DNA of 25,278 nucleotides from a virus: positions 1-25,278 of the IMG/VR virus record IMGVR_UViG_3300025695_001264, one strand, 5' to 3'. Below the pieces are notes generated by a model, which worked only from the letters and a program-made list of their open reading frames with translations, was not told the DNA's origin and searched no databases. The position numbers and the translations under genes are program-made. Below are positions 1 to 19,135 of the stretch, piece by piece; the stretch's first letter is position 1; each line of letters begins with the position of its first letter.

Positions 1-1158
1 CGTTCTGTTGAACCTCACATTTTCTTACAACAGTCTTATCCCGAAGATTTCCACGTAGATATAGATTACGAACCAAAAGTTAATGATATTAACTATTGGA
101 AACAGTATGATATGGTATGTTACCATAGGTCTATCGGTAGAGACCCTGTTGCCTCTGTTCAAATTGTTCAGATGTTAAATAAGATGGGTATCGTAACTGT
201 AATGGATTTAGATGATTATTGGTTACCAACAAAGGAACACCCAGCACATAATCTTGTCGTTAAAAACGAATTACATAAAAAGATTGTAGATAATTTGAGA
301 GTCGCTCAATATGTGACAACCACCACTACTATTTTTGCCGAAGAGATTAAGAAAATTAATAAGAATATTTTTATCTTACCAAATGCAATTAATCCAAAAG
401 AACCTCAGTTTATGGCTGAGACAAAACCGTCAGACAAATTAAGATTCGGATGGTTGGGAGGTTCATCTCACTTACATGACTTAAAAATTCTTAAAGATGC
501 TTTTGGAAAATTAAATTCACAAAAAGACAACTTCAATGTTTATTTATGTGGATTTGATACTCGTGGAACAATTACTGAGATTAACCCTCAGACGGGAGAA
601 CAAAAACAAAGACCCATCCAACCTCACGAAACAGTATGGGCACAATATGAACAAATATTTACCAATAACTACAATTTGGTAACACCTGAACATAAGGAAT
701 TCCTAACAAAATATGTTCAAGAACCATATACCTTAGAAGAAAATCCATTCTATACTCGTGTGTGGACAGAACCTGTAACATCATACGCTAAGAATTATGC
801 GAACTTTGATGTGTCATTAGCACCACTTAAAAATCATATCTTTAACCGAGTAAAATCTCAGTTGAAAGTGATTGAGGCTGGTTTTTACAAGAAGGCACTT
901 ATAGCATCTAACATTGGTCCGTATACTATCGACTTGAAACATTCACTTCAAAATGGTAACTTTGTTGATGGTAACGCACTATTAGTCGAGGAAAGAAGAA
1001 ATCACTCTGATTGGGCAAAGTGGATGAAGAAACTTATTGACAACCCATCATGGGCTGAGGATTTGGGTGAAAGACTTTATGAGACGGTATCAAAAACATA
1101 TGACTTAAATATAGTAACAGAAACAAGAGCACAAATTTATAAGGAGATTGCAAAATGA
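1..1158 (+). CDS. Glycosyltransferase, GT4/GT1-like (5' truncated by window edge)
   Basis: The reading frame is open from base 1 to the TGA at 1156-1158, so the N-terminus lies outside the window; the first internal ATG is at 112. The visible 385 residues have the look of a GT-B glycosyltransferase. An N-terminal half carries a DLDDYW segment. A linker follows with a stretch of threonines and FILPNAIN, the usual end of the first Rossmann domain. The second half starts with the FGWLGGSSHLHDL segment typical of the nucleotide-sugar-binding domain. A later segment (SLAPLKNHIFNRVKSQLKVIE) resembles the donor-binding E-containing motif of GT4 enzymes. Donor and acceptor cannot be told. The stop overlaps the next start (ATGA), so translation is probably coupled. 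It is the first visible member of the glycan gene set. Confidence 0.75.
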   Translation, partial: RSVEPHIFLQQSYPEDFHVDIDYEPKVNDINYWKQYDMVCYHRSIGRDPVASVQIVQMLNKMGIVTVMDLDDYWLPTKEHPAHNLVVKNELHKKIVDNLRVAQYVTTTTTIFAEEIKKINKNIFILPNAINPKEPQFMAETKPSDKLRFGWLGGSSHLHDLKILKDAFGKLNSQKDNFNVYLCGFDTRGTITEINPQTGEQKQRPIQPHETVWAQYEQIFTNNYNLVTPEHKEFLTKYVQEPYTLEENPFYTRVWTEPVTSYAKNYANFDVSLAPLKNHIFNRVKSQLKVIEAGFYKKALIASNIGPYTIDLKHSLQNGNFVDGNALLVEERRNHSDWAKWMKKLIDNPSWAEDLGERLYETVSKTYDLNIVTETRAQIYKEIAK

Positions 1159-1858
1159 TAAATGTACCAAAGACAAAACTATTATTTTTTGACTTAGAGA
1201 CTGTTGGGATTGAGCAGGACTACAAGACATTGAAAAAGAACAAACCCGAACTTGCAAAATTGTTTGAGTCTTATCAAAATTGGATTGTAAAACGATTCCC
1301 CGAAGAGGAAGGTAATTCTGTTGAAGAGATGTTTTACAATAAGGCTGCACTCATTCCTGAGTTTGCCAAGATAATAGTGGCGTCTTTTGCCTTTTATGCC
1401 CCTGATGGTAATATACACAAACAAACATTCTCTTCTGACCAAGAGATTGAAGTGTTACAAGAAATCAAAAACTTACTCACCAAAGTTGGTAAGTTAGATT
1501 TTTACCTTTGTGGTCATAATATTAAAAACTTTGACATTCCAATGATGGGTAAACGTATGATTATTAATGGAATGAAACCACCATCAATCTTACCACAATA
1601 CGACACAAAACCGTGGGAGATGAGAGCAGTGGACACCATGGAGATTTGGAAGTTTGGTAACAACTTCTCAATGGCATCATTAGAATTAATGTGTGTATCC
1701 ATGGGAGTTACCTCACCCAAAGATGGTGAAGTAACAGGAAACATCGTTCACCAAACATATTGGGAAACAGAAGCTTTAGACCCAATCGCGACTTACTGTG
1801 AAGAAGATGTGGATGTATTAGCAAAATTAATGGACAAACTTTATAACTTAGTATAATG
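1155..1858 (+). CDS. DEDDy 3'-5' exonuclease (DnaQ/PolB-exonuclease-like)
   Basis: A 233-residue protein with the three exonuclease motifs in order. Exo I is FFDLET with D13 and E15, Exo II is GHNIKNFD near residue 120, and Exo III is YCEEDVD near the C-terminus, where the Y-x3-D spacing marks the DEDDy subtype. These four acidic residues bind two metal ions and hydrolyse 3'-terminal nucleotides. The small stand-alone size and the GHN.K.FD form resemble the predicted exonucleases related to the PolB proofreading domain. The role could be DNA repair, proofreading in trans or host DNA recycling. It starts with ATGA overlap on the upstream glycosyltransferase, and its stop shares one base with the dUTPase start (TAATG). 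The stop codon is TAA at about 1855-1857. Confidence 0.82.
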
Positions 1859-2452
1859 GGAAAATTTAAAGATATGACAGACGGTCTTAAGATGTTAAAA
1901 GACCTTCAAAAAAGTATGGGTAGTATGGACCTTAACGACCCACAAAAATTATTAGATTCAATGAATCTCGATATGGACAAATTAAATGATTCTTTCATGG
2001 AACAGATGACGCCAAAAACTATATTGAGGTATTCATTGAAATCCGTAAATAAAGAACCTGATTATGCATATCCTACAGATTCGGGATTTGACCTACGTTC
2101 CAATATGAAAGTAACACTCGGACCATTAGAAAGAGAATTAGTTCCAACAGGACTTTATTTAGACATACCTGAAGGTTTTGAAGTTCAAGTAAGACCTAAG
2201 AGTGGTTTAGCAATTAAAAAAGGACTGTCAGTGGTTAATACACCGGGGACGGTAGACCAAGGATATACTGGTGAAATTCAGGTTATTCTTATCAACCTAA
2301 GTAATGAGACTCACACCATAGAAATTGGTGATAAGATTGCACAGGCGGTTTTAAGTCCTGTGATGGTAGGAAAACATGTAACCCTACAAAGGGTATTAAA
2401 CGTAGATGATAAAGACCGTGGTGATAACGGATTCGGTTCAACAGGAAATTAA
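1856..2452 (+). CDS. dut: dUTPase (deoxyuridine triphosphatase) with N-terminal extension
   Basis: Hydrolyses dUTP to dUMP and pyrophosphate, keeping uracil out of phage DNA and feeding dTMP synthesis. All five motifs of the trimeric dUTPase family are present: DSGFDL at 75-80, RPKSGLA at 113-119, the GTVDQGYTGEI segment at 131-141 with the catalytic Asp (D134), KIAQAV at 160-165, and the P-loop-like RGDNGFGSTG at 188-197. The family core begins at about residue 51 (MTPKTIL). Before it sits a Met- and Asp-rich, helical-looking extension of 50 residues that dUTPases normally lack. The start at 1856 is chosen because it overlaps the preceding stop by one base and leaves no gap. An internal start at 2006 would give a standard-length enzyme, so the extension could be artefactual. 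Confidence 0.93.
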   Translation: MGKFKDMTDGLKMLKDLQKSMGSMDLNDPQKLLDSMNLDMDKLNDSFMEQMTPKTILRYSLKSVNKEPDYAYPTDSGFDLRSNMKVTLGPLERELVPTGLYLDIPEGFEVQVRPKSGLAIKKGLSVVNTPGTVDQGYTGEIQVILINLSNETHTIEIGDKIAQAVLSPVMVGKHVTLQRVLNVDDKDRGDNGFGSTGN

Positions 2453-2453
2453 T

Positions 2454-4934
2454 ATGATTACAATTGGATATAGTACAAAAAAAATTAACCCTGAATTTAG
2501 AGAATACATTGAGAAATCATGTGGACTGAGAGGTGTCGAAGTCATACCATTCGAAAATCCAGGGACGCATTCATTAACCGAAGCTTATAATATCATTCTT
2601 GATAAATCAACGAATGATATTGTTGTGCTTTGTCATGATGACATATATTTTGAAAAAGGTAATTGGGGTAATAAACTTATCAAACACTTTAAGAGAAACC
2701 CTGAATATGGGATATTGGGTGTTGCTGGTTCAACAAAATTACCTTCCTCAGCAAAATGGTGGGAAGACCCTCGTAGGATGAGAGGTATTGTAAACCATGA
2801 ACATGAAGGTAAAAAATGGGAGTCAAAATATTCACCAAGTTCAGGTAATAAGATTGATGACGTAGTTTTAGTGGACGGTTTGTTTATGGTTTTAAACAAA
2901 AAGAATATTCAAAAAAACTTTAATGAAGAAGTAAAAGGATTTCATTTATATGATGTAGACTTCTGTTTTAGAAATTACATTGAAGGTGTAAAGATTGGTG
3001 TTCTATATGATATTCGTATAACACACCTATCAATCGGTCAAACCAATCAACAATGGGAAGACAATAGAGAGGAATTTGCACAAAAGAATAGTGATAAATT
3101 ACCCATAAAAATATCACCTAATTTAAACATAAACTCACCAATTAAGGTATTATTATCTTCATTATTCTTTAAAGAATTTACAGGTTCTGAAATGTATGTT
3201 TTTGAATTAGCAAAAGAGTTAGTGAAACTTAATTGTGACGTAACTGTATTATCTGATACTAATGGTCCTCTTTCAAAAATTGCAAATCAATACAAAATAA
3301 AAACCTTATCCCATAATAACCCTCCTGGTTATATCATGGGTGACGGTATTATGAGATTTAACACACCTCAAGGTATTATTAAGACCGAACCGGGTAAGTT
3401 CTATAGAAATGGAATATATGATTTTGATATTATCCATGTTCAACACAAACCAATCACTGAACGTTTACTACAACTTTATCCCGACCTCCCTAAAGTTTCA
3501 ACTATTCACTCAGAAGTAATTTCATTGGAAGACCCTGTTAAAGACGAAACTATTATGAAATATATCACTATAAGACCTGAGATTAGTAATAAAATAATAA
3601 ATAATGATGGTATCGAGTCCGATAAGGTAAAATTGATATATAACCCAGTAGATATGAACAGGTTTAACACTAAAGGTATCTCAGACAAAAACTATATACT
3701 TTTTGTTGGTACTATTGATTACCTGAGAGAAAAGACGATTAAAGATGTGTCCGATTATGCAAAGTCTGTTGGTAAAGAATTTTGGATAGTAGGTGAAAAT
3801 AAATCCAACTATTTAGATGAACTATTAAAAGAATCTCATATTAAACATTACCCTTCAACACAAAGAGTTGAAAAATTCGTTAAAGAGTGTTCTGAAACTG
3901 CTGGTATTCTTCTTGGTAGGACAACTATTGAAAGTTGGTTATGTAATAAACCATCGTGGATTTATCAAGTTAATGATAAAGGTGACATTCTTTCAAAGGA
4001 AAGAACCACACCTCCTGACGATATAAATAAATTCTACTCTTCAGAGGTGGCTAAACAAATCAAAGAAGTATATATTGAATCAATGAAAAAATGGGAACAA
4101 AACTTAGATTTGGAAGAAAAGAGAAAACACCAAAGAATGATTTTCAATGGTAGGAAAATAATCCCTAACAATACTAAAAACTGGGGTGACTTAGTCCCAT
4201 TTAATATCATCGATAAGTTATTCAATAATCATGGATTAAATGAAACTGATGTTTTTAATGTTAAAAATCCTGGTAAACAATATAAAGTATATTCTACAGG
4301 TAGTGTTATGCATTTCACTAAACGAAACAGTATTGTTTGGGGGACAGGTTGTATAGATAAAGGAGCTATTGGAGATATACCACAGAAGGTATATGCGGTT
4401 AGAGGTCCCTTAACACGAGATGAGTTATTAAAACGAGGTATTGAATGTCCTGAAATTTATGGTGACCCAGCTTTACTTTATCCGATGATATACAATCCAA
4501 AAATCGAGAAGAAATATAAATGGGGTATCATTCCTCATTATATTGAATTTGAGTCAGATAAAGATATCGACATATTAAAAAATTTAGAACAATTAGGATT
4601 TAAAATTATAGATATTTCTTCAGGTGAAGAAGAGTTTATTAATCAAGTATTAGAAGTTGAAAATGTTATATCATCAAGTCTACACGGGTTGATTATTGCA
4701 GATGCATATGGTATACCGAACGCAAGAGTTAATATATCAAACAAACTAATTGGTGGTGATTTTAAATTTAAAGATTATTGTATGTCTGTAGGTAGAGAAA
4801 TTGACTTAGGTTTTCAACTTCATGAAAACACCACATTAGAAGAAATATTAGAGTTACATTTTAATAAATCTATTAAATTTAATTCGCTTAAACTATTAAA
4901 CTCGGCTCCGTGGGGTATTAAATATGTTCACTGA
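2454..4934 (+). CDS. Trimodular glycan enzyme: GT2-like + GT4-like + polysaccharide pyruvyl transferase
   Basis: An 826-residue fusion. Residues 1-215 look like a GT-A (GT2-type) transferase, with VLCHDDI (HDD at 61-63) as the metal/nucleotide-sugar site and YDVDFCFR at 166-173 as the acceptor-side acidic motif. Residues 229-570 look like a GT-B (GT4) enzyme, beginning KVLLSSLFFKEFTGSE and containing IYNPVDMNRF and ILFVGTIDYLREK. Residues 576-826 are a polysaccharide pyruvyl transferase: NWGD at 576-579, WGTGC at 629-633, VRGPLTRDELLKRG at 649-662, YGDPALL at 669-675 and SSSLHGLIIADAYGIP at 740-755. This last family puts a pyruvate ketal on a sugar using phosphoenolpyruvate. A longer reading from an ATG at 2406 is open but overlaps the dUTPase by 47 bases, so 2454 is preferred. 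The stop overlaps the next gene by 11 bases. Confidence 0.82.
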   Translation: MITIGYSTKKINPEFREYIEKSCGLRGVEVIPFENPGTHSLTEAYNIILDKSTNDIVVLCHDDIYFEKGNWGNKLIKHFKRNPEYGILGVAGSTKLPSSAKWWEDPRRMRGIVNHEHEGKKWESKYSPSSGNKIDDVVLVDGLFMVLNKKNIQKNFNEEVKGFHLYDVDFCFRNYIEGVKIGVLYDIRITHLSIGQTNQQWEDNREEFAQKNSDKLPIKISPNLNINSPIKVLLSSLFFKEFTGSEMYVFELAKELVKLNCDVTVLSDTNGPLSKIANQYKIKTLSHNNPPGYIMGDGIMRFNTPQGIIKTEPGKFYRNGIYDFDIIHVQHKPITERLLQLYPDLPKVSTIHSEVISLEDPVKDETIMKYITIRPEISNKIINNDGIESDKVKLIYNPVDMNRFNTKGISDKNYILFVGTIDYLREKTIKDVSDYAKSVGKEFWIVGENKSNYLDELLKESHIKHYPSTQRVEKFVKECSETAGILLGRTTIESWLCNKPSWIYQVNDKGDILSKERTTPPDDINKFYSSEVAKQIKEVYIESMKKWEQNLDLEEKRKHQRMIFNGRKIIPNNTKNWGDLVPFNIIDKLFNNHGLNETDVFNVKNPGKQYKVYSTGSVMHFTKRNSIVWGTGCIDKGAIGDIPQKVYAVRGPLTRDELLKRGIECPEIYGDPALLYPMIYNPKIEKKYKWGIIPHYIEFESDKDIDILKNLEQLGFKIIDISSGEEEFINQVLEVENVISSSLHGLIIADAYGIPNARVNISNKLIGGDFKFKDYCMSVGREIDLGFQLHENTTLEEILELHFNKSIKFNSLKLLNSAPWGIKYVH

Positions 4935-5616
4935 TTTAAACATAGATAGACCAATTAATCTCATACAAGAAGTAAGGACATTACACTCACTTTGTGAGAA
5001 TGGTGTGTCTTTGTATTGTGATTCACACAACTATCAAAAATTACTACCCTTAAAAGAGTTTTTCGATTGTAATATTAACTTGGGATTAAATCCTTCAGGT
5101 AAAAGTTTTAGTGAGGTAGTATCAATAATACATCATGAACCAACCACAAAAATTGATAATATTGTTAAAAATTTAATTTTTCCAAAGTCTTTAATAGATT
5201 TCTGTCAAGAAGAAAATGATAATAAATTAGATGAAATCTATTTCAGGGGATTAATAACTGGTAAAAGAGAGAAAAGTATTGAAAAACTTAAAAGTATAAC
5301 TAATAAAACAATCACTATAGATTCATCAAATAAAGGAAGAAAATTCCCATTAAAAACATTTGATAAAGATTATTTTGATGAAATGAAAAAATACAGATTT
5401 GTATTTTGTCCTGATGGTGATTTTGTTTGGTCATATAGATTTTTTGAAACTATAATGTGTGGGGCAATACCAATAGTTGAAAACGAATCTGCACTTTTTA
5501 GTGGTTTTTATTATTATAATTTAAAGTCCGATTTAAACTCTATAGAGTGGAATAAAGAATGGGTAATAAAAAATTTAGAACTTTTAAAACAAAATTTTAC
5601 ATATGAAATTAATTGA
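4924..5616 (+). CDS. Probable glycosyltransferase, exostosin/GT47-like
   Basis: A 230-residue protein whose C-terminal half reads like the donor-binding half of exostosin-type or related GT-B transferases. The key stretch is YRFVFCPDGDFVWSYRF followed by FETIMCGAIPIVENE; the conserved glutamate and the CGAIPI turn contact the nucleotide sugar in this superfamily. The N-terminal half is not recognisable and is shorter than usual, so this may be a reduced enzyme or one half of a pair. The gene is very AT-rich (16 of 60 G+C in the line starting at 5101), more so than the epimerase gene downstream. It overlaps the trimodular enzyme by 11 bases and nadE by 14 bases, so the three are probably co-translated. 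Substrate unknown. Confidence 0.6.
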   Translation: MFTDLNIDRPINLIQEVRTLHSLCENGVSLYCDSHNYQKLLPLKEFFDCNINLGLNPSGKSFSEVVSIIHHEPTTKIDNIVKNLIFPKSLIDFCQEENDNKLDEIYFRGLITGKREKSIEKLKSITNKTITIDSSNKGRKFPLKTFDKDYFDEMKKYRFVFCPDGDFVWSYRFFETIMCGAIPIVENESALFSGFYYYNLKSDLNSIEWNKEWVIKNLELLKQNFTYEIN

Positions 5617-6346
5617 AAAGATTACCGAATGGATTAAAAATTATGCAGAAGAGAATAGAATAAGTTCTTTAGTTGTTGGTGTATCAGGAGGCGTAGACTC
5701 TGCACTGGTTTCTACATTATGCGCAAAAACAGGGTTACCGACACACTGTGTATTAATACCAATACATCAAGACCCATCACATACTGAGAGAGGTATGAAC
5801 CATGTGAGATGGTTACAGAAAGACCACGACTTGGTGGGGTTACATGAGTTTAATTTAACCGATGTTTATGACAAATTTGTAAATACTATGGAATACGCGT
5901 CTTCACCACTTGGTTTTGCGAATTCTCGTTCACGACTACGGATGGTTACGTTATATCAATTGGCAACTACCGTTAATGGTTTGGTTGTCGGTACCGGTAA
6001 TAAAGTTGAAGACTTTGGTGTGGGTTTTTACACAAAGTATGGTGATGGAGGGGTGGACATTTCACCCATTGCAGATTTAATGAAAACCGAAGTCTACGAA
6101 CTAGCCGAAGAATTAGGTATAAATCAAGAAATATTAGATGCCCAACCAACAGACGGTCTATGGGGTGATGATAGAAATGATGAAGACCAAATCGGGGCCA
6201 CTTACCCTGAATTGGAATGGGCAATGGGATATGTCGGTGACGGGTCTGATTTAGATAGTAGACAACAAAGAGTATTAGAAATCTACGAAAATTTTCACGA
6301 AAAAAATAAACATAAAATGGAACCGATTCAGGTATTTAAAAAATGA
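5603..6346 (+). CDS. nadE: NH3-dependent NAD+ synthetase
   Basis: Amidates nicotinic acid adenine dinucleotide to NAD+ with ATP and ammonia, the last step of NAD synthesis. The 247 residues carry the N-type ATP-pyrophosphatase P-loop SGGVDS at 28-33, NSRSRLRM at 107-114, the family signature GTGNKVEDF at 130-138, the TKYGDGGVDISPIADL stretch near 144-159, and the C-terminal PTDGLW...DEDQIGATYPELE segment typical of NadE. The length fits the ammonia-using form with no glutaminase domain. It lies inside the glycan block, overlapping the gene before it by 14 bases and the NAD-dependent sugar dehydrogenase after it by 4 (ATGA). That suggests supply of NAD+ for sugar oxidation; a part in offsetting host NAD+-depleting defences is an alternative. 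Confidence 0.92.
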   Translation: MKLIEKITEWIKNYAEENRISSLVVGVSGGVDSALVSTLCAKTGLPTHCVLIPIHQDPSHTERGMNHVRWLQKDHDLVGLHEFNLTDVYDKFVNTMEYASSPLGFANSRSRLRMVTLYQLATTVNGLVVGTGNKVEDFGVGFYTKYGDGGVDISPIADLMKTEVYELAEELGINQEILDAQPTDGLWGDDRNDEDQIGATYPELEWAMGYVGDGSDLDSRQQRVLEIYENFHEKNKHKMEPIQVFKK

Positions 6347-7509
6347 AAAAAATAGGAGTAATTGGTGTTGGGAAGTTAGGTCTATCTTTCGCACTTTTAG
6401 CTGAACATAAAGGATACGAGGTTATTGGTTCAGATATATCAAAAGAGTATGTTGACCAACTTAACCATAAAACACTTAAGAGTAACGAACCTTATATTGA
6501 GGAATTTTTAAAAGAGTCCAGTAAATTTTATGTGACCACACATAATGTTGAAGTTATTGAAAACACGGACATCATTTTCACTTTTGTTCCTACACCTTCA
6601 CTTCCAACTGGTGAGTATAATCACGAATATGTGGAACAGGTGGTTGAGTCTTTTGAGATGATGTATAACAATGGTCATGATTTGGTTGGTAAAATTTTAG
6701 TAGTTGGATGTACAACCAACCCTGGTTACGTAGATACCATCACGGAAAGATTGAGTAAGTTCGGTATGGACGTCTGTTACAACCCTGAGTTTATTGCTCA
6801 AGGTGATATTGTGAATGGGTTAAAATACGCCGACATGGTGTTAATTGGAACCTCATCAATGGTGGAAGTTGAAAGGGTAAAAGACATCTATAAGATTTTG
6901 ATGGATGATGAAAATCCAAAGTTCAACGTAATGTCCAATACCGCAGCTGAAATAACTAAGATTTCAGTTAACTGTTACCTAACTACAAAAATATCATTTG
7001 CCAATATGATTGGTGAGATTTGTCATAACACGGGTATTGGTGAAGAAGTTGAGACCGTATTATCCGCAATAGGTGATGATACAAGAGTTGGTAAAAAATA
7101 TTTGAACTATGGATTTGGTTTTGGTGGTCCTTGTCTTCCACGTGATAATAGAGCACTCGGTGTACATGCTGAGAAAGTAGGTTTAGAAATCAATTTACCA
7201 TTAGAAGTGGATAAGTTTAATATTGAACACCACAAATATTTGGTAAACAAATTTGTTATGGAGAATCCAAACCGTAATACAACATTTGTTTTCAATTCAG
7301 TGACCTATAAAAAAGGAACGGACCTGCTTATTGAATCACAACAATTAAATCTTTTACTTTCATTATTGACTGAAGGGTATAGATGTGTTGTTATTGATAT
7401 CGATGAAGTTAGAGAACAATTAGAAAACCCACTCACTAAAACATACGGTAATAAAATAAAATTCCAACCTATTGGTACGACCGCAGAAGGGGTAAAAATT
7501 ATACTTTAA
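6343..7509 (+). CDS. UDP-glucose/GDP-mannose dehydrogenase family protein (UDP-glucose 6-dehydrogenase-like)
   Basis: Oxidises a nucleotide-activated hexose twice at C6 with 2 NAD+ to give a uronic acid donor. The 388-residue length is close to the family norm. Visible elements are the N-terminal Rossmann loop GVIGVGKLGL (GxGxxG, residues 5-14), FVPTP at 81-85, YNPEF at 146-150 with the conserved Glu149, the linker-helix lysine K206 in AAEITKISVN, and the active-site FGFGGPCLPRDN with catalytic Cys264. The C-terminal domain (VTYKKGTDLLIESQQLNLL) is the usual nucleotide-sugar-binding half, where family members more often have KxxTdDxRESps. UDP-glucose, UDP-HexNAc and GDP-mannose cannot be distinguished by eye. 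It overlaps nadE by 4 bases, a logical pairing because the enzyme consumes NAD+. Confidence 0.87.
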   Translation: MKKIGVIGVGKLGLSFALLAEHKGYEVIGSDISKEYVDQLNHKTLKSNEPYIEEFLKESSKFYVTTHNVEVIENTDIIFTFVPTPSLPTGEYNHEYVEQVVESFEMMYNNGHDLVGKILVVGCTTNPGYVDTITERLSKFGMDVCYNPEFIAQGDIVNGLKYADMVLIGTSSMVEVERVKDIYKILMDDENPKFNVMSNTAAEITKISVNCYLTTKISFANMIGEICHNTGIGEEVETVLSAIGDDTRVGKKYLNYGFGFGGPCLPRDNRALGVHAEKVGLEINLPLEVDKFNIEHHKYLVNKFVMENPNRNTTFVFNSVTYKKGTDLLIESQQLNLLLSLLTEGYRCVVIDIDEVREQLENPLTKTYGNKIKFQPIGTTAEGVKIIL

Positions 7510-7514
7510 ACATT

Positions 7515-8366
7515 ATGATAACATTTTCATCACTCGGTAAATATGGTCGGTTAGGTAATCAACTATTTCAATATTCCATATTAAAATCAGTATCACTTCA
7601 AACCAATTATGAAATAGTTTTGAACAAAAACATTTTTAATTTTGTTTGGCACGGTCAAAAATGTTTATTAAATAATTTTAAATTAAAAAGTGCAAATTAT
7701 GGTAACCCTAAACCTGAACATTATTATAGAGAAAAAATGGACTCAACAATATTAAGTCCAAAAATGTATGATAAAAACGTGTATAATGTTTTAGATAATA
7801 CTGATTTTTTTGGGTATTTTCAAAACGCAAAATACTATGAAGATATAAGAATATTATTAAGAGATGAGTTAGAAATGAGTGACCGATATGAAGATTATGC
7901 AAAAAATTATCTTAGTAAATTTAATAATCATACAGTATCTTTACATGTAAGGAGAGGAGATGTGTCTAATGGTACTAATAAAAATTGTGATTGGTCAAAT
8001 GATTTTAGTGAGGGTTCAACATTAAAAAATTATTATCAAGAGGCACTGAATAATGTACCGGAAGATAGTAGTATCATTTTGTTTACTGGTGGGAATAGAA
8101 ATAATGATAATACTATGGATTACGAATGGTGTAAAAAAAACTTTAACGATAATAGGATAATAATGACTGAAGAAATGGATGAGTTAGAAACATTTTCAAT
8201 AATGACAAAAGTTGACACTAATATTATCGGATTCAAGTCAACTTTTAGTTGGTGGGGAGGGTTTTTAAATAAAAATGAGAGTGTAATTGCTCCTAAAAAT
8301 TTTAATCCAACGATAGATACACCTGAAAATATCGAAGTATACCCATCGTATTTTAAAACAATTTAA
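7515..8366 (+). CDS. Alpha-1,2-fucosyltransferase-like glycosyltransferase (GT11)
   Basis: The 283 residues carry the hallmarks of family GT11: GRLGNQLFQY at 11-20, the donor-binding HVRRGDV at 144-150 (HxRRxD motif), and STFSWWGGFL at 242-251. Known members transfer L-fucose from GDP-L-fucose to the 2-position of a galactose. No GDP-fucose synthesis genes (GDP-mannose 4,6-dehydratase, fucose synthase) are visible here, but a GDP-mannose 3,5-epimerase lies 1.3 kb downstream. Its product, GDP-L-galactose, is GDP-fucose with an extra 6-hydroxyl, so the true donor may be GDP-L-galactose. There are 5 bases between the dehydrogenase stop and this start. The gene is strikingly AT-rich: the line at 7621 has 12 of 60 G+C, a hint of separate origin. 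Confidence 0.9.
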   Translation: MITFSSLGKYGRLGNQLFQYSILKSVSLQTNYEIVLNKNIFNFVWHGQKCLLNNFKLKSANYGNPKPEHYYREKMDSTILSPKMYDKNVYNVLDNTDFFGYFQNAKYYEDIRILLRDELEMSDRYEDYAKNYLSKFNNHTVSLHVRRGDVSNGTNKNCDWSNDFSEGSTLKNYYQEALNNVPEDSSIILFTGGNRNNDNTMDYEWCKKNFNDNRIIMTEEMDELETFSIMTKVDTNIIGFKSTFSWWGGFLNKNESVIAPKNFNPTIDTPENIEVYPSYFKTI

Positions 8367-8378
8367 AACTTTAAAATT

Positions 8379-8993
8379 ATGTTAATAGATTTAAGAAAAC
8401 TAAATAAAAAATACAATTTAAATATTGATGGTGTAATACATATTGGTGCACACTATGGTGAAGAAAATAATGTTTACAGAGAATTAAATATCGATAATAT
8501 CATCTATGTAGAACCAATCAAATCAACATACGACATATTGGTCGATTCGACAAAGGATAATAAAAACACACTATACTTTAACACCGCCTTAGGGAATTTT
8601 AATGGTAAAACTATGATGAATATGTCATCAAACAGAAATACATCAGCATCAATATTAAAACCGAAAAATCATCTTTATCTAAGTCCAAATGTTAAATTCC
8701 AAGGTGAAGTAGAAGTTAATATAGATTTACTTGATAACTTAGAATTTAATAGACAAGATTATAATATGATTAATATTGATGTACAAGGTTATGAGCTTGA
8801 AGTATTTAAAGGAGGTAAAGACACTTTAAATGGTATTGATTATATTATGGCAGAAATAAACCGAGATGAGGTCTATGAAGACTGTGCACAGTTAGACGAA
8901 CTAATAGAATTTTTGTCACCTTATGGTTTTGAATTAGTGGAAACTAATTGGGCCGGTCGTGAATGGGGTGATGGATTTTTTATTAAAAGATAA
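8379..8993 (+). CDS. FkbM family SAM-dependent methyltransferase (first of a pair)
   Basis: The 204 residues match the FkbM methyltransferase pattern. GVIHIGAHYGEE at 18-29 is the SAM-binding glycine loop, YVEP at 43-46 holds the acidic residue for the ribose, and MINIDVQGYELEVFKGG is the characteristic second half (ID.QG.E...L.G). FkbM enzymes usually O-methylate sugars or polyketides, which fits the glycan setting. The C-terminus (GREWGDGFFIKR) is the typical end. Next comes a second, different FkbM gene after 4 bases. The region is AT-rich like the GT11 gene. The substrate sugar and position are unknown. Confidence 0.85.
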   Translation: MLIDLRKLNKKYNLNIDGVIHIGAHYGEENNVYRELNIDNIIYVEPIKSTYDILVDSTKDNKNTLYFNTALGNFNGKTMMNMSSNRNTSASILKPKNHLYLSPNVKFQGEVEVNIDLLDNLEFNRQDYNMINIDVQGYELEVFKGGKDTLNGIDYIMAEINRDEVYEDCAQLDELIEFLSPYGFELVETNWAGREWGDGFFIKR

Positions 8994-8997
8994 TATT

Positions 8998-9624
8998 ATG
9001 AATTTGATTTTTGATATAGGAGGTAACAGAGGTAAAATGACTAATGTGTTTAGTGAAAAATCAGTAAAGGTTATAGTATTTGAACCAAATCCAAAATTAG
9101 TAACCCTACTTAATAATAATTTTCAAACGCCAGATGTAATAATTGATAATAGGGCAATATCAGACACTAAAGGTTTTAAAACTTTCAATATATCTAACGC
9201 AGATACAATATCTACTTTTTCGTATCAATGGATTGAAAACTCTAGATTTACCGGTAAATATAAATGGGACAAAACGATTGAAGTAGAAACCTTAACATTA
9301 TCTGATGCAATTAATGAATATGATATTCCTGACTATATTAAAATAGACACGGAAGGTCATGAATATGATATATTAATAAATTTCCATCAATTATTACCTA
9401 ATACTATTTTTTCTTTTGAATGGGCTGAAGAACAAAAAGATAAAATAAAAAAAATATTGAATCATATGTATTCATTAGGTTATACCAAATACTCATACAC
9501 ATATGGAGATAAAATTTTATTTGATGAAGAAATCTCATGGGTTGAGTATCAAAATTTAAAATTATTAGATAACTTAGATGAGAATAGAATGGAGAAATGG
9601 GGAATGCTGTATTTTAAAAAATAA
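8998..9624 (+). CDS. FkbM family SAM-dependent methyltransferase (second of a pair)
   Basis: A 208-residue protein with IFDIGGNRGKM at 4-14 as the SAM glycine loop, VFEPNP at 27-32, and YIKIDTEGHEYDIL in the middle, the form typical of classical FkbM domains (KIDTEGHE). It differs clearly from its upstream neighbour outside these motifs, so the pair is not a recent duplication. The start at 8998 is preferred; the frame is open further up to 8959 but would overlap the preceding gene and would place extra residues before a perfect N-terminal strand. Six bases separate its stop from the epimerase start. The expected role is O-methylation of a second sugar or position on the same glycan. Confidence 0.83.
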   Translation: MNLIFDIGGNRGKMTNVFSEKSVKVIVFEPNPKLVTLLNNNFQTPDVIIDNRAISDTKGFKTFNISNADTISTFSYQWIENSRFTGKYKWDKTIEVETLTLSDAINEYDIPDYIKIDTEGHEYDILINFHQLLPNTIFSFEWAEEQKDKIKKILNHMYSLGYTKYSYTYGDKILFDEEISWVEYQNLKLLDNLDENRMEKWGMLYFKK

Positions 9625-9630
9625 TATAAT

Positions 9631-10725
9631 ATGAAAAACATAGTAATATTAGGTGGTGGTGGTTTTATCGGAGGTCACCTCGCAAAAAGATTAAAAGACG
9701 AAGGAAATAAAGTCACCATTTGTGACATCAAAGAACACGAATATTGGAATCACGAGGATATTTGCGATGAGTTTATAGTTGGAGACCTCAGAAACCCCGT
9801 TGTTGTCGCCAGTGTTATCGGAAAAGGTGTAGATGAGGTTTATCAACTTGCCGCGGATATGGGAGGTGCTGGTTACATTTTTACAGGTGATAACGATGCT
9901 AACGTAATGCACAATTCAGCACTTATCAATTTGAATGTCGTACATGAATGTACAAAGAAAAAAGTAGGTAAAGTATTCTACTCTTCTTCGGCGTGTATGT
10001 ATCCTGAACATAATCAGTTGGACCCCAACAACCCTAATTGTGAGGAATCGTCTGCATATCCAGCAAACCCTGATTCAGAATACGGATGGGAAAAGTTGTT
10101 CTCAGAAAGATTGTTCTTAGCTTTTAACCGTAATTACGGATTGGATGTGAGGGTAGCTCGTTTCCACAATATCTTCGGACCTATGGGTACGTGGACAGGT
10201 GGAAAGGAAAAGGCACCGGCAGCAATGTGTAGAAAAGTTGCTGAAGTACCTGAAGGTGGTGAGGTTGAAGTGTGGGGTGATGGTCATCAAACACGTTCAT
10301 TCTTGTATGTTGACGAATGTGTTGAAGCGGTATTAAGACTTATGGAATCCGAATTTTTAGGACCAGTAAATATTGGTTCGGAAGAGATGGTGACTATCAA
10401 TGAGCTAGCACAGATGGCTATTGATATCTCAGAAAAAGATATTAAGATTAACAATATAGGAGGACAAGATTTCATTGACAAATACGGGTTTACTTGTCCT
10501 GTAGGTGTTAGAGGTCGGAACTCTGATAATAAACTTTATAATGAAAAAGTGGGATGGGAAGTATCTCAACCCCTTAGAGTAGGAATGGAAAAGACTTATC
10601 AATGGATTAATGAACAAGTAGAAGAAAGTAAAAAGACTTATATCTATGAAAGCCCTGATAAAGGTGAAACTGTATATAGAAGAGAGTTTGGTGCTGACCA
10701 CAACACAAGAGAACTTGTTAAATAA
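9631..10725 (+). CDS. GDP-mannose 3,5-epimerase-like extended SDR enzyme
   Basis: The 364-residue protein closely follows the plant GDP-mannose 3,5-epimerase, which makes GDP-L-galactose (and GDP-L-gulose) from GDP-D-mannose. It has the NAD-binding GGGGFIGGHLA loop (8-18), AADMGGAGYI (74-83), SSSACMYPE (118-126), YGWEK (151-155), RFHNIFGPMGTW (177-188), GGKEKAPAAMCRK (190-202), WGDGHQTRSF, and VRGRNSDN near the end. Cys122, Tyr151, Lys155 and Lys194 occupy the same relative spacing as catalytic C145, Y174, K178 and K217 of the Arabidopsis enzyme as I remember it. A family-typical tail follows. The gene is richer in G+C (27 and 30 of 60 in the lines at 9841 and 10141) than the GT11 and FkbM genes before it. 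A different NDP-hexose epimerase of the same family cannot be fully excluded. Confidence 0.87.
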   Translation: MKNIVILGGGGFIGGHLAKRLKDEGNKVTICDIKEHEYWNHEDICDEFIVGDLRNPVVVASVIGKGVDEVYQLAADMGGAGYIFTGDNDANVMHNSALINLNVVHECTKKKVGKVFYSSSACMYPEHNQLDPNNPNCEESSAYPANPDSEYGWEKLFSERLFLAFNRNYGLDVRVARFHNIFGPMGTWTGGKEKAPAAMCRKVAEVPEGGEVEVWGDGHQTRSFLYVDECVEAVLRLMESEFLGPVNIGSEEMVTINELAQMAIDISEKDIKINNIGGQDFIDKYGFTCPVGVRGRNSDNKLYNEKVGWEVSQPLRVGMEKTYQWINEQVEESKKTYIYESPDKGETVYRREFGADHNTRELVK

Positions 10726-10742: not shown

Positions 10743-11453
10743 ATGGCTACTAAAGGTAGAAGAAGTGAACAAAACCCTAAAAAATCACGCAAAGAGATTA
10801 TCAGGGAAATAATTGGGAGGACCCCAAGAAAGAAGTTTCTTTCTGAAAGTCAAAAAGTTTATTACCAAACACTTTGTGACAGTGAAATAACAATTTGCAC
10901 AGGACCTGCGGGTGTTGGTAAATCATATGTTGCGATGAGTGCTGCTGTTCAACTATTGTTAGACGAGAGTAACTCTTACGAGAAAATTATCATCGTTAGA
11001 CCAGCAGTTGAGGCTGAAGAAAAACTCGGAGCATTACCAGGTAACTTAGAGGAAAAGTTAGACCCATACATTTTTCCATCATATTACCTACTGAATAAAA
11101 TTATAGGTAAAGAGGCAAGAGAAAAACTAAAAGAACATGACATCATTGAAGTGTTCGCATTGGCATACATGAGGGGTATGAACATTGATAACTCAATTCT
11201 AATTTTTGAGGAAGCTCAAAACTCTACACCCTCACAGATGAAACTATTATTGACAAGGATTGGGTTCAATAGTAAGTTTTTCATATCGGGAGATATTGAC
11301 CAGACTGACCGATATAAAGATAAAACACACTCGGGTTTATATGACGCGATGAGTAAGTTCACCGATTTAGATGAGGTGGGTACTTTTGACTTTGGTACGG
11401 AAGATATAATCAGAAATCCAATCATTAGTAAAATATTAAAGAAATACGAATGA
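10743..11453 (+). CDS. phoH: PhoH-like P-loop ATPase
   Basis: The 236 residues have Walker A GPAGVGKS at 54-61, RPAVEAEEKLGALPG at 86-100, and Walker B ILIFEEAQN at 152-160, followed by the SGDIDQTD motif (182-189). All are typical of the PhoH family, widespread in marine phages. PhoH proteins are ATPases of unsettled function, linked to phosphate stress and possibly RNA metabolism. The protein begins with a basic, Lys/Arg-rich segment (ATKGRRSEQNPKKSRK). An AT-rich gap of 17 bases precedes the ATG, without a Shine-Dalgarno sequence. The stop overlaps the next start (ATGA). Confidence 0.93.
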   Translation: MATKGRRSEQNPKKSRKEIIREIIGRTPRKKFLSESQKVYYQTLCDSEITICTGPAGVGKSYVAMSAAVQLLLDESNSYEKIIIVRPAVEAEEKLGALPGNLEEKLDPYIFPSYYLLNKIIGKEAREKLKEHDIIEVFALAYMRGMNIDNSILIFEEAQNSTPSQMKLLLTRIGFNSKFFISGDIDQTDRYKDKTHSGLYDAMSKFTDLDEVGTFDFGTEDIIRNPIISKILKKYE

Positions 11454-13396: not shown

Positions 13397-14194
13397 ATGA
13401 AAGATATTTCAGTTATTCTCCCAGTTGAGAGTTCAAAACACAAAAATTTTACTGAGTTGTTTACAAACTCGATTATGTCGATTACTAAACAATCAGTTCA
13501 ACCTAAAGAATTAGTCTTAGTTCACACTAATGAAGAAAGTTTAGTATCATACTTAAACGATTTTGATTTTAGTGGTCTTACCGTAAACATGGTGGAAAAC
13601 AAGGGTGAGTCTGACTTCGCATCTCAAATGAATTTGGGTGTTGAAAAGGCCACTTCCGAGTGGGTTTCATTTTTAGAGTTCGATGATGAGTATTCATCTA
13701 TTTGGTTTAAGAATGTTCAGACATATATTCACGCACATCCATCAGTAAGTGCGTTCTTGTCACTCGTTGTTGATGTTGATGAGAAAGGGACATTCGCAGG
13801 ATTCACAAACGAAGCCACATTTGCAGCTTCGATGAATAGTGAAATCGGTTACTTAACAAATGAAGTATTACTTGATTACCAAAACTTCCAAAGTGCTGGT
13901 ATGGTGATTAAGAGAGATACGTATAAAGAATTAGGTGGTTTTAAACCATCAATCAGATTAACGTTTGTTTATGAATTCTTATTACGTTTGACTTACAACT
14001 CAGTTAAAATTATGACAATCCCAAGAATTGGTTACAAACACTTGAACATGAGAGAAGGTTCAATTTTCTGGAACTATAAGAATGGTGAAAATAAAGTAAC
14101 AGATGACGAAGTTAGGTTTTGGTTAGACAGTGCGAAGAAAGAACATTTCTTTGTTGACGACAGAAACATAAAATATGAACCTGAGAACGTTTAA
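13397..14194 (+). CDS. Glycosyltransferase, GT2 family-like
   Basis: A 265-residue GT-A enzyme. DISVILPVESSKHKNFTELF opens the nucleotide-binding half, the SITKQSVQPKELVLVH segment is the usual second strand, and WVSFLEFDDEYSSIWF holds the DxD-like metal site (FDDEY, near residue 92). NFQSAGMVIKRDTYKELGGFKPSIRL is the acceptor-side part common to GT2 proteins, and the C-terminus is short with no membrane segments. It probably acts in the cytoplasm. Its stop shares one base with the sigma-factor start (TAATG), so the glycan block and the late regulator are directly linked. Confidence 0.82.
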   Translation: MKDISVILPVESSKHKNFTELFTNSIMSITKQSVQPKELVLVHTNEESLVSYLNDFDFSGLTVNMVENKGESDFASQMNLGVEKATSEWVSFLEFDDEYSSIWFKNVQTYIHAHPSVSAFLSLVVDVDEKGTFAGFTNEATFAASMNSEIGYLTNEVLLDYQNFQSAGMVIKRDTYKELGGFKPSIRLTFVYEFLLRLTYNSVKIMTIPRIGYKHLNMREGSIFWNYKNGENKVTDDEVRFWLDSAKKEHFFVDDRNIKYEPENV

Positions 14195-14973
14195 TGTTTT
14201 TATCAGGAAATACATCGGAACCTACCCCCAAAAAAAGGGGTAGGAAACCGAAGACCACGACAAACTATTTTGACGTCAGAGAAGAAAATGCTGTCAAGAT
14301 GTTTTTGTCTGCATCCACATATGAAGAAAAAAATGAAATTTATAATGAATATCTAAGGGCACCCTTAGATAAGATGATTGAGTCAATCATCAGACGTTAT
14401 AAATTATATCGTAAAGGAATGGAATTCAAAGAAATTCATGTCGATACACATTCTTTTCTTATCACAAAAGTAGATAAATTCAAACCAGCCAAAGGAAAGA
14501 AGGCTTATTCTTATTTTGGTACGATTTGTAAAAATTATCTAATGGGTCAAATTATAAAAGACCAAAAAGAACAAAATAGAAAAATATCTTATGAAGACAT
14601 TTCAAGTTCATTAGAAAACCGTCCTGACTTAATTTATCACTTAGAATATGATAAAATTGAGCCGAATCAAGTTATTCTACATTTCTTAGCCGAAATGGAA
14701 AAGTTCATGGAGGAATCGCCTTCCGAAATGGAAAAGTTCATGGAGGAATCGCCTTTAAATAAGAATGAGGTTAAATTGGGTTATGCTTTGATGGAGTTAT
14801 TTGAAAATTATGAGACAATATTCATCGGGACCGACAACAACAAATTCAACAAAAATATTATTCTACTTTCTTTACGTGAAATGACTAATATGTCAACTAA
14901 AGAAATTAGAACGTCAATGAAGAAATACAAAGTTTTATATTACGAATTGGTCAAAAAAATTAATAACCTATAA
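14194..14973 (+). CDS. 55: Late-transcription sigma factor, T4 gp55-like
   Basis: A 259-residue protein resembling T4 gp55. Residues 55-125 look like sigma region 2: LDKMIESIIRRYKLY, then DTHSFLITKVDKFKPAKGKKAYSYFGTI, then KNYLMGQIIKDQKE. T4 gp55 has the corresponding FDETKYKNPHAYI...VQRIKKERKE. The C-terminal 70 residues (LSLREMTNMSTKEIRTSMKKYK) look like a helix-turn-helix, suggesting a region-4-like module that T4 gp55 (185 residues) lacks. A basic GRKPK patch lies at 16-20. It directs host polymerase to late promoters. Its position between the glycan genes and the structural genes supports this. It contains an exact 33-bp tandem duplication (residues 167-188) and a strong hairpin in codons 10-17. 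Confidence 0.65.
   Translation: MFLSGNTSEPTPKKRGRKPKTTTNYFDVREENAVKMFLSASTYEEKNEIYNEYLRAPLDKMIESIIRRYKLYRKGMEFKEIHVDTHSFLITKVDKFKPAKGKKAYSYFGTICKNYLMGQIIKDQKEQNRKISYEDISSSLENRPDLIYHLEYDKIEPNQVILHFLAEMEKFMEESPSEMEKFMEESPLNKNEVKLGYALMELFENYETIFIGTDNNKFNKNIILLSLREMTNMSTKEIRTSMKKYKVLYYELVKKINNL
14221..14244 (+). repeat. Perfect 8-bp hairpin inside the 5' end of the sigma-factor gene
   Basis: CCTACCCC and GGGGTAGG form a perfect 8-bp stem around an 8-base loop (C plus seven A). It starts 28 bases into the coding sequence. There is no T-run after it, so it is not a standard terminator on the + strand. It could pause transcription or slow translation. Confidence 0.6.
14690..14755 (+). repeat. Exact 33-bp tandem duplication in the sigma-factor gene
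   Basis: Two identical 33-base copies, 14690-14722 and 14723-14755, in frame. They encode two 11-residue copies of EMEKFMEESP plus S or L. The flanking bases on both sides differ, so the boundaries are sharp. Perfect identity points to a recent event or an assembly artefact. Confidence 0.97.
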
Positions 14974-14988
14974 AACTTCGTAAAAAGA

Positions 14989-14998
14989 TATTTATAGT
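14989..14998 (+). promoter_or_regulatory. TATTTATAGT motif before the 15000 start (possible late promoter)
   Basis: The 10-mer TATTTATAGT lies in the short gap before the ATG at 15000 and is repeated exactly at 19115-19124 before another structural gene. Its first eight bases are the reverse complement of the T4 late box TATAAATA. Direction and function are not settled; in an AT-rich genome single copies can occur by chance. Confidence 0.35.
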
Positions 14999-14999
14999 T

Positions 15000-15377
15000 A
15001 TGGGACGACCTAAGAAAAAAGAAATTGTTTTAAGTAAAGATTCTGTTTTGAGTCTTATGCAGGAAATCTACAATGAACTTGTAGAACAAAGAGGAACTGC
15101 TGTAAGAATTCAAAATAAGATGCTTGCAATGTTGAAAGACCCAAAAGATATGACCGTTATTGGTCCTGTCATTAAAGAACAACAAAAAATAATTAACGAT
15201 ACCATAGAGAAGAAATTATCCCTTTCAAAACTACAATCAAGTATTTGGGAAAAATCTCAAAGTGGTAATGAAGAGTCGTTCAGTATTTCTGATATGGACG
15301 ATGATGTATTATCAGCATTAATTGATAAGGATTCTAATACGGACAAGGGTAACTCAGAAGGATATAAATTAGATTAA
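15000..15377 (+). CDS. Small basic/coiled-coil protein of unknown function
   Basis: A 125-residue protein beginning with a basic GRPKKKE patch, followed by long helices likely to form coiled coils (LSLMQEIYNELVEQRG; QQKIINDTIEKKLSLSKLQ) and an acidic C-terminus (MDDDVLSALIDKDS). It is not firmly recognisable. Position right after the gp55-like gene and before structural genes makes a late-transcription co-activator (gp33-like) or a small terminase subunit conceivable, but no motif proves either. It starts three bases after the TATTTATAGT motif. The gap to the next gene is 13 bases. Confidence 0.7.
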   Translation: MGRPKKKEIVLSKDSVLSLMQEIYNELVEQRGTAVRIQNKMLAMLKDPKDMTVIGPVIKEQQKIINDTIEKKLSLSKLQSSIWEKSQSGNEESFSISDMDDDVLSALIDKDSNTDKGNSEGYKLD

Positions 15378-15390
15378 AATAGATATCATC

Positions 15391-17364
15391 ATGGGTACGG
15401 ACTTGAATCAAGATTACAAAAAGGTTAAAAGCACAGTTCAGGCGTATAAGACTACTACTGAAGCTAAAAAGGATATTCAGCAAAACATTAAAAACAATGC
15501 TGGTGACAACTTTACTAAATCAAAAGATAAGTTCTTTAGTAATCTAAATGAATGGGGTCAAACAACGGAAGGTGTTACACAACAAAAGAAAAAACAATTT
15601 CAAGACAAGGCTAAAAACCAATTAGACCAACTTACAGAAATCTTTATGATATCTGCAAAATCCGCAAGGTCTGAAGCCGGTCCTATTGCCAATAGTAAAT
15701 CAGTCGATAAGTTAGTTGAAATTTATAAAGAAACTATTCTTAACACTAAAGATAGGATTAGAGAGATATTCATTAAAGAAACTATCTCAGCATTGGGTTG
15801 TTCTGAAGAACAAACATTCTCCACATCACCATTATATGTTAGAGTTCAGTCTGTCGACCTTTTTAAGAAACTATTAAATAACCCTGATGGTGATACTCAA
15901 GCATTATTATTTGAAAAGGACACCACACCAAATGGATTTATTCCATATTCAATGAATAGAGAGTTATATAATAGAACTCAAAATTTAGGGACATCCTTTA
16001 ATCAAGAATACGGAAACAATTATGTGGGTGCATCTAAAAACTCAATAATGAATATCAGTTATGTCGACCAAGATAATAATGGTAATCTTGGTGACTACTT
16101 CAAAGTTGAACTCAATCAAAGTGCCAATAAGATTAGTAGTGTCACTCAATTCTTACAGGATTATTACACATCGATAGATATGATTGATATCGATGAATTG
16201 ATAACAGTAATTTTAGACAACTTAACAAACTCAGTTTCATTTGATTTAGGTGTTGATGTTGGGTTTAAAGAACAACAAGGTAAATTTGCAAAGTTATTAC
16301 AGAGAATTTTGGGACTTTGTTTCGATAACACAAAAGAGATTGATGTATCAGGTATTTCTAAGTTATCTGTTTTAGATAATATAGATGAAAGTTTTTTCGA
16401 ATTCACAAACAATGATTTAAGAATTATAGAAAACGAACTAGATAACTTTCAAAAAGGTGTGACTGAGTTTACTGACTGTGATAATGTAAAATTACCCGTA
16501 GATAATCAAGCAGTCATTAACTACATTAAAGAAGCCAGAGACGAAGATACTTCTATAAAAAAATTAGATAAACTTATCGAAACAATAGATAAATTATCTG
16601 AAAATGAGGAATGGAGATTAAAACTACCAAATTCTATTAATATCAACGCAGCTATTAAGTTTGATTTAATGAAATGGATTCCACTTAGTATAATGCAGGT
16701 TCTATTATCACCTAAAAATCTTCTTGGTTTTATGACGATGTTTAAAGCAATTCAAAATAACATCGTAGACCTAATTGAAGATTTACAAGAATTCTTAAGA
16801 AACTTTAAGGACTTTATAATTGAAGTGATGAGTAAAATAGGTGCCATCTTTGTTGAAGAGTTGTTTGAGGCTATAAAAAGAAATATTTCTGAATTAGTAA
16901 GACTTCTAATCTCTGAAATCGCCAAAGAAGCTAGAGATGCAAGAGCCCGAATGATTTTTACGGTTTTAGAAACTGTTCTTGTATTATCTGAAGGATTCCA
17001 AGATTGGAGACGATGTAAATCAGTGGTGGATGAACTATTTGCTCTCCTAAAAATTGCAGGTAGACAAATCGCCTCAGGATTACCTCCTTTTACTCTCGGT
17101 CTATCTCAATTTTTACCGGGTATGTCAGAAACTAGAGTTTTTGCAAACTACATAGAAGAATTACAGAAAATGGGTTTACCAACTGGTGACTTACCTGATG
17201 GTTCACCTAACCTTATGATACAAGCTAACTTGTCATCAATTAAAGGACAATTTAAAGAAATGCATGAAAACGGTAAAACAGAAATTTTCATACCACCATT
17301 ATCAGTTGTTGCGCTGGGTGCTGGAACGACATTACCAACAAAAGCAGTAGGTAAATCATATTAA
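15391..17364 (+). CDS. Large virion/baseplate structural protein candidate
   Basis: A 657-residue protein, not recognised by family. Residues 1-100 are Lys/Gln-rich and coiled-coil-like. The middle has alternating charged and hydrophobic stretches, and around 430-520 there is a long helical region rich in Ile/Leu (IPLSIMQVLLSPKNLLGF; FKAIQNNIVDLIEDLQEF) that could be membrane-active or a buried helical bundle. The tail ends KTEIFIPPLSVVALGAGTTLPT. There is no signal peptide and no enzyme motif. It lies directly upstream of a small protein and the gp5-like hub gene, so a baseplate or tail part is the best guess. One base separates its stop from the next start. Confidence 0.6.
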   Translation: MGTDLNQDYKKVKSTVQAYKTTTEAKKDIQQNIKNNAGDNFTKSKDKFFSNLNEWGQTTEGVTQQKKKQFQDKAKNQLDQLTEIFMISAKSARSEAGPIANSKSVDKLVEIYKETILNTKDRIREIFIKETISALGCSEEQTFSTSPLYVRVQSVDLFKKLLNNPDGDTQALLFEKDTTPNGFIPYSMNRELYNRTQNLGTSFNQEYGNNYVGASKNSIMNISYVDQDNNGNLGDYFKVELNQSANKISSVTQFLQDYYTSIDMIDIDELITVILDNLTNSVSFDLGVDVGFKEQQGKFAKLLQRILGLCFDNTKEIDVSGISKLSVLDNIDESFFEFTNNDLRIIENELDNFQKGVTEFTDCDNVKLPVDNQAVINYIKEARDEDTSIKKLDKLIETIDKLSENEEWRLKLPNSININAAIKFDLMKWIPLSIMQVLLSPKNLLGFMTMFKAIQNNIVDLIEDLQEFLRNFKDFIIEVMSKIGAIFVEELFEAIKRNISELVRLLISEIAKEARDARARMIFTVLETVLVLSEGFQDWRRCKSVVDELFALLKIAGRQIASGLPPFTLGLSQFLPGMSETRVFANYIEELQKMGLPTGDLPDGSPNLMIQANLSSIKGQFKEMHENGKTEIFIPPLSVVALGAGTTLPTKAVGKSY

Positions 17365-17365
17365 T

Positions 17366-17563
17366 ATGGAAAATAAATTACAAGACATTATATCTAATTA
17401 CAAAAATAAGGGTAATTCAGATTTGAAATTTGCACTCTCAGAACTAAGCCAAGATTTTGAAGAAACAAAGTCATTATTAATTAAACTTACAAATCATTTA
17501 GATTCGACTGAAAAAATTTATAATGATATTCTAACTGAATATAAAAAAAGAGGTAATCAATGA
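17366..17563 (+). CDS. Small coiled-coil protein upstream of the hub gene
   Basis: A 65-residue, strongly charged and almost certainly all-helical protein (LSQDFEETKSLLIKLTNHLDSTEKIYNDIL), unrecognised. It begins one base after the 657-residue gene and its stop overlaps the gp5-like start by 4 bases (ATGA), so its synthesis is probably coupled to that of the hub. It could be a chaperone or linker for baseplate assembly; this is inference from size and place only. Confidence 0.68.
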   Translation: MENKLQDIISNYKNKGNSDLKFALSELSQDFEETKSLLIKLTNHLDSTEKIYNDILTEYKKRGNQ

Positions 17564-19113: not shown

Positions 19114-19114
19114 G

Positions 19115-19129
19115 TATTTATAGTAAAAA
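19115..19129 (+). promoter_or_regulatory. TATTTATAGTAAAAA motif before the 19136 start
   Basis: TATTTATAGT (19115-19124) repeats the motif before 15000, and TATAGTAAAAA (19119-19129) occurs again on the - strand at 22516-22506, ahead of the gene starting at 22487. It lies in a 22-base gap after the hub stop. It may be part of a late promoter. Confidence 0.35.
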
Positions 19130-19135
19130 CGAATA

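Follow-up and report, generated by a model that had tools for sequence, protein, structure and literature searches.

A predicted three-module glycan-assembly enzyme and the apparent exchange of its modules in a T4-like aquatic phage

Can a single phage gene encode three glycan enzymes that act one after another, and if so, which glycan do they build? The question is raised by an open reading frame in a virus record of 25 kb, analysed here at its full length of 25,278 nucleotides (the window). The window carries a T4-type major head protein, and because the nearest named phages by this protein, which infect Microcystis and Flavobacterium, share about 42% identity with it, the host is uncertain, though probably a member of the Bacteroidota. 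The gene product is probably a cytoplasmic three-module glycan-assembly enzyme of a large T4-like aquatic phage that would add two sugars and a pyruvate cap, with a constant head, a remainder exchanged as a cassette and a host-surface glycan as its presumed target. The context of exchange in which the gene lies is more interesting than the fusion itself.

The gene and its fused form

The reading frame is intact and runs without interruption from 2406 to 4934 in the open reading frame list of the window. The ATG at 2454, just after the end of the dUTPase gene at 2452, is the likely start, since relatives share that methionine as first residue, and gives a protein of 826 residues. The original prediction had described three glycan-enzyme domains with motifs at HDD (residues 61-63), FVGTIDYLREK (417-427) and SSSLHGLIIADAYGIP (740-755), all of which were located at these positions. 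Pfam matched PF13712 (residues 28-208; 98.2 bits against a cut-off of 27), PF13439 (244-403; 38.7 against 28.5) and PF04230 (647-760; 40.3 against 25.3) in that order, each above the gathering score, so that none of the three domain predictions failed. Judged from these matches and from modelling, the protein is an intact chain of a GT-A domain, a GT4-like GT-B domain and a domain of the ketal-pyruvyltransferase family (PT).

Structure prediction of the full protein, proposed as a check, was confident for GT-A and GT-B (pLDDT mostly >85) and of low confidence for the pyruvyltransferase part, because just six alignment rows cover that part; for the same reason the full-length model gives no domain packing. 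A mixed alignment of full-length and PT-only rows placed the N-terminal half of the PT rows onto GT columns and was excluded from folding. Folded with its own deep alignment, PT reached a pLDDT of 89.7.

The same fusion was found in five further contigs when viral metagenome contigs were scanned (L002, L003, L083, L084 and L085), giving six with the window, all with the linker at the same position. Thus, the suspicion that separate proteins had been joined by an assembly error was not borne out, and the PT domains of the fusion proteins, at 65-92% identity, have diverged too far to be one single joined sequence. The usual form is shorter, with the gene stopping after GT-B at 541-552 residues, near the linker, in 78 of 80 loci. 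Eight phage records of 121-317 kb that carry this two-domain form hold no PF04230 gene anywhere, and a separate PT gene in such phages was rejected. A conserved internal start yielding free pyruvyltransferase found no support either: Met562 is present in the window and three relatives, L084 has a TTG-type codon and L085 a Leu codon there, and there is no good Shine-Dalgarno sequence. All scans of contigs are lower bounds.

Among 296 Bacteroidota genomes the GT-A/GT-B/PT order is absent. Six of their 63 PF04230 open reading frames exceed 600 residues and are fused to GT2, radical SAM, methyltransferase or other domains, and the GT-A relatives in Bacteroidota are single-domain proteins of about 300 residues. 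Most bacterial relatives of PT are Bacteroidota, and cultured phages matched the PT part only. Bacterial proteins with this PT type fused to MatE-like flippase, radical SAM, methyltransferase or uncharacterised domains were also seen (L154 3360-5774, L093 3037-5160, L172, L173 and L175).

A constant head with exchangeable modules

In related phages the GT-A head stands at the same locus, after dUTPase and before PhoH, with variable parts behind it (Table 1). A scan with the head gave 306 relatives, of which 80 were read. Among these 80 the head was followed by GT-B (45), GT2 (14), GT-B and PT (4), GT2 and PT (3), a short remnant (6; about 363 residues) or about 400 residues that match no Pfam family (7), and stood alone once. 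A scan with the C-terminal motif region of PT gave L189, L191 and L193, in which the GT-A head (75-78% identical) and PT (70-73% identical) flank a GT2 domain (PF00535) in place of GT-B; the L189 and L191 proteins are identical to each other.

Table 1. Features of the fusion gene and its surroundings in the window (positions of the window; residues and codons of the fusion protein)
Feature	Position	Strand	Basis
Upstream glycosyltransferase, phrog_7162, conserved flank of the locus	112..1158	+	PHROGs, related loci
3'-5' exonuclease, conserved flank	1155..1856	+	PHROGs, related loci
dUTPase, conserved flank directly upstream of the fusion gene	1856..2452	+	PHROGs, related loci
Three-domain protein GT-A/GT-B/pyruvyltransferase, 826 residues	2454..4934	+	ORF, Pfam, relatives' starts
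GT-A head, residues 1-212, PF13712, HDD at 61-63; constant module of the locus	2454..3089	+	Pfam, alignment, model
Recurrent recombination edge, codons 214-216	3093..3101	+	Four pairs: L021/L083, L005/L207, L237/L240, window/G311
GT-B (GT4-like) module, residues 226-545	3129..4088	+	Pfam, model; GT2 substitutes in L189/L191/L193 and others
Charged helical linker, residues 546-561	4089..4136	+	Relatives, predicted structure
Pyruvyltransferase module (PT), residues 562-826, PF04230	4137..4931	+	Pfam, alignment, model
NWGD, residues 576-579 (NxGD signature)	4179..4190	+	Alignment; signature from PMC10629545
RGPLT, residues 650-654 (RxxxS/T signature)	4401..4415	+	Alignment; signature from PMC10629545
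SSSLHG, residues 740-745; His744 corresponds by motif to WbbZ His226 / CsaB His308	4671..4688	+	Alignment
GT47/exostosin-like gene, overlaps the fusion-gene end; slightly under the Pfam cut-off	4924..5616	+	ORF, Pfam
NAD+ synthase (nadE)	5603..6346	+	
Nucleotide-sugar dehydrogenase	6343..7509	+	Pfam
GT11-like glycosyltransferase	7515..8366	+	Pfam
FkbM methyltransferase	8379..8993	+	Pfam
FkbM methyltransferase, second	8959..9624	+	Pfam
NAD-dependent sugar epimerase/dehydratase	9631..10725	+	Pfam
PhoH, downstream anchor of the variable sugar region	10743..11453	+	PHROGs, related loci

The clearest view of an exchange comes from two phages, G301 (locus L083) and G310 (locus L021), which are 98.0% identical over 3.9 kb up to codon 214, a stretch that holds the upstream GT, the exonuclease, dUTPase and the GT-A head. 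Beyond this codon the DNA is unrelated, in frame, for 5.0 kb in one and 7.3 kb in the other, and identity then resumes at 97.4% over 8.7 kb from the start of a nucleotide-sugar dehydrogenase gene just before PhoH. The replaced stretch comprises GT-B and PT followed by sugar-tailoring genes (assigned by eye) in one phage; in the other it holds a GT-B just 47% identical to that of the window, no PT and a different set of sugar genes (by eye). Because the two diverge in frame at the end of GT-A, the left edge of the exchangeable sugar cassette lies inside the fusion gene. The window and L004 switch at codon 275.

Along the GT-A tree there are 15 changes of architecture label; for GT-B+PT, at least four changes are required by supported branches. 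The fused proteins occupy two separate supported places in the GT tree, and their PT domains form one clade (98/89). Between the two fusion groups GT-B is 53-57% identical versus 65-69% for PT, whereas inside the first group the order is mostly reversed, with GT better conserved than PT; this contrast fits movement of PT with or without other parts. Repeated loss of PT may be an alternative to its movement.

These data, all from metagenome assemblies without reads, suggest that related phages keep the first module and trade the second and third, swapping parts to change the sugar coat that they make. A further reading, which we put forward tentatively, is that the locus is a diversification system in which the constant GT-A head serves as in-frame acceptor of interchangeable modules (a second GT, an optional pyruvyl cap and matching sugar genes) recombined at one domain boundary, which would let a phage switch its glycan product in one step.

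Several other features of these loci were observed. The 621-residue head protein of L219 (3001-4866) resembles a fusion of the 363-residue gene of L240 (3001-4092) with the following gene of 263 residues (4085-4876), so fission and fusion appear to continue at the locus. Between dUTPase and the fusion gene, L083 (1923-2363), L193 (1680-2108), L084 and L085 have an extra open reading frame of 142-162 residues, absent in the window, with the motif YLIDIDGTI, which looks phosphatase-like by eye. The NAD+ synthase of the sugar region adjoins the NAD-dependent nucleotide-sugar dehydrogenase, and 12 related loci also carry it, again downstream of the GT gene. Elsewhere in the window, at 14194-20856, several open reading frames of 86-657 residues without a Pfam match are probably virion or late-gene proteins; those at 14194, 15391 and 17560 have no PHROGs match either.

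Predicted activities and target of the enzyme

HDD, the acidic metal motif of GT-A, is invariant in 40 alignment rows, and the GT-A model matches the UDP-bound GT-A structure 2qgi (E 1.1e-10, TMt 0.67). Characterised pyruvyltransferases share a signature of NxGD, RxxxS/T and His (PMC10629545); in PT, N576, G578, D579, R650 and H744 are invariant in 69 rows and T654 completes the signature, the whole of which is invariant or nearly so. Lys771 is Lys in 67 of 69 relatives. Ser742 occupies the position of the phosphate-contacting Arg337 of Pvg1p and of R306 in CsaB, and every one of the 69 rows that cover this column has Ser; an Arg two residues before the His is absent from the signature residues listed in PMC10629545. 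In a Foldseek search with the PT model, Pvg1p and WbbZ were weak matches (TM about 0.35, E 0.06-0.17) ranked below UDP-GlcNAc 2-epimerases, enzymes with which WbbZ has likewise been confused (PMC10629545), and a PDB sequence search with a PT profile gave no match even at E 10. PT is under purifying selection, with dN/dS of 0.04 and 0.15 in the two pairs with unsaturated dS.

The consecutive steps of the original prediction (sugar, sugar, pyruvate ketal) are a reasonable inference by analogy. The GT-A head would add a common first sugar, the exchangeable second GT would add a cassette-specific sugar, and PT would use phosphoenolpyruvate to place a ketal on that terminal sugar, which would block further extension and add negative charge. 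A module swap behind the constant head would alter what is made and leave the first step as it is. The target may be a glycan of the host surface, which the phage would remodel in the course of infection to change receptors or to exclude other phages. This target is favoured by the known pyruvate ketals and by the tested phage WbbY/WbbZ pair.

The next most likely target, in itself rather unlikely, is the virion, whose capsid or tail proteins would be glycosylated in the cytoplasm, so that swapping would vary the sugar coat of the virion and not that of the host. Virion glycosylation retains this share of probability because the window genes tested included none that could be recognised as coding for a lipid carrier, a flippase or export, a point against a host-surface target. 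The modules also look cytoplasmic, the sugar genes share 25 kb with the major head protein gene, and virion glycosylation has been described for mycobacteriophages (Freeman 2023, as cited in PMC12619734). However, the pyruvate ketals that have been characterised belong to glycans that are secreted or part of the cell envelope (PMC6801904, PMC10629545), and host O antigen is the substrate of the sole phage-encoded pyruvyltransferase to have been tested (PMC10629545).

A different doubt concerns the middle module. In its EX7E motif, which departs from the GT4 consensus, the first Glu is replaced by Ile485 (invariant in 40 rows), and for this reason GT-B activity is less certain; Thr420 replaces the Arg expected after Gly419 in the Gly-rich turn and is Thr in nearly all of the 40 relatives. 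These substitutions, and the truncated remnant that is all some phages carry of it (in proteins of 363 residues), would fit an enzyme in which just GT-A and/or PT is active and GT-B is a catalytically altered scaffold or acceptor-binding domain. Such an arrangement seems doubtful, however, given that E493, the second Glu of EX7E, and many other GT-B residues are invariant in the same rows, that dN/dS of the GT part is about 0.08 (two pairs with unsaturated dS), and that GT-B is replaced by another complete GT and not by filler.

Glycosylation of phage DNA bases as in T4, with PT capping a base-linked sugar, is very improbable. The fusion gene does lie beside dUTPase and exonuclease genes in a T4-like phage, the GT-B model resembles T4 alpha-glucosyltransferase too, and multi-sugar DNA modification by viral GTs has been reported (Pyle 2024, as cited in PMC12619734). 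Nevertheless, in four phages of the group the proteins that resemble thymidylate synthase carry the Asn of true ThyA and are not dCMP hydroxymethylases, which makes DNA unlikely as a target and led us to reject modification of the hmC type for these four relatives, a set outside which the window's own phage, a fragment, falls. Furthermore, the matches of the GT-B model are headed by GT4 enzymes that act on polysaccharides or small molecules (HepE and MshA are examples), and the partner genes of the cassette make and tailor sugars. That fusion and swaps are artefacts of metagenome assembly is hardly credible: every copy does come from assembled contigs and two of the proteins (L189 and L191) are identical, but one fusion with one linker position recurs in six contigs, each junction that was inspected keeps the frame and falls at a domain boundary, and the PT domains have diverged to 65% identity.

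Relation to known systems and significance

The closest comparison for a host-surface glycan enzyme is found in Klebsiella, where WbbY, a dual-GT polymerase, and WbbZ, which adds the pyruvyl cap, build and cap the O1 antigen, and the pyruvyltransferase stops chain growth (PMC10629545). Phage BK049963 carries a WbbY/WbbZ pair that is functional on host O antigen (PMC10629545), the one tested example of phage-encoded pyruvylation that was found. Compared by modules, each system has two GT modules beside a pyruvyltransferase, whose signature residues are the same in both. However, WbbZ is made on its own, from a gene that is divergently transcribed, whereas PT is fused in six contigs here, and no module swapping has been described for WbbY/WbbZ. 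In the O-antigen systems of Klebsiella O12 and O7, coiled-coil polymerase-terminator fusions likewise unite a chain-terminating enzyme with several GT modules in a single protein, but their terminator has another chemistry (in O7 a methyltransferase-kinase) and sits at the other end, and they have a long coiled-coil ruler where the phage fusion has about 16 linker residues (PMC11231755).

Within PF04230, PT resembles CsaB, WbbZ and Pvg1p in family score and in the NxGD, RxxxS/T and His signature, and may share their Rossmann-type fold; it differs from Pvg1p and CsaB at Ser742, where they have Arg, and in being fused behind two GTs. Related PTs do occur in other single-chain fusions, each with one GT: a GT2-PT protein of Marinilabilia salmonicolor (L104) and, in reversed order, a protein of Lak phages (TAG read as Gln) of about 735 residues, with PT followed by a C-terminal domain that is GT-like by eye (L090 3257-5476, L091 3344-5551). 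The earlier statement that no enzyme with the GT-A/GT-B/PT order is known agrees with our searches, in which neither this order nor in-frame exchange behind a constant GT head was described in the open-access literature. Another phage has tandem pyruvyltransferase genes (L196 and L197, 2690-3502 and 3512-4270) amid genes that by eye resemble those of sialic-acid-type sugar synthesis.

The host-recognition or hypervariable islands of T4-like aquatic phages likewise combine glycosyltransferases with sugar genes and are thought to remodel host LPS (PMC7029224), and a recent large lineage of aquatic Bacteroidota phages has four core GT families (PMC12619734). In those islands the edges lie between genes (PMC7029224), whereas the edge here lies inside an open reading frame at a domain boundary. 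If the proposal is correct, phages would go beyond collecting glycan genes in variable islands: they would remake a single multi-module enzyme through in-frame exchange, and the partner sugar genes would move with it. The locus would then offer natural domain combinations for testing how GT modules cooperate and for making pyruvate-capped glycans, and such exchange would explain the fast switching of phage-made surface or virion glycans.
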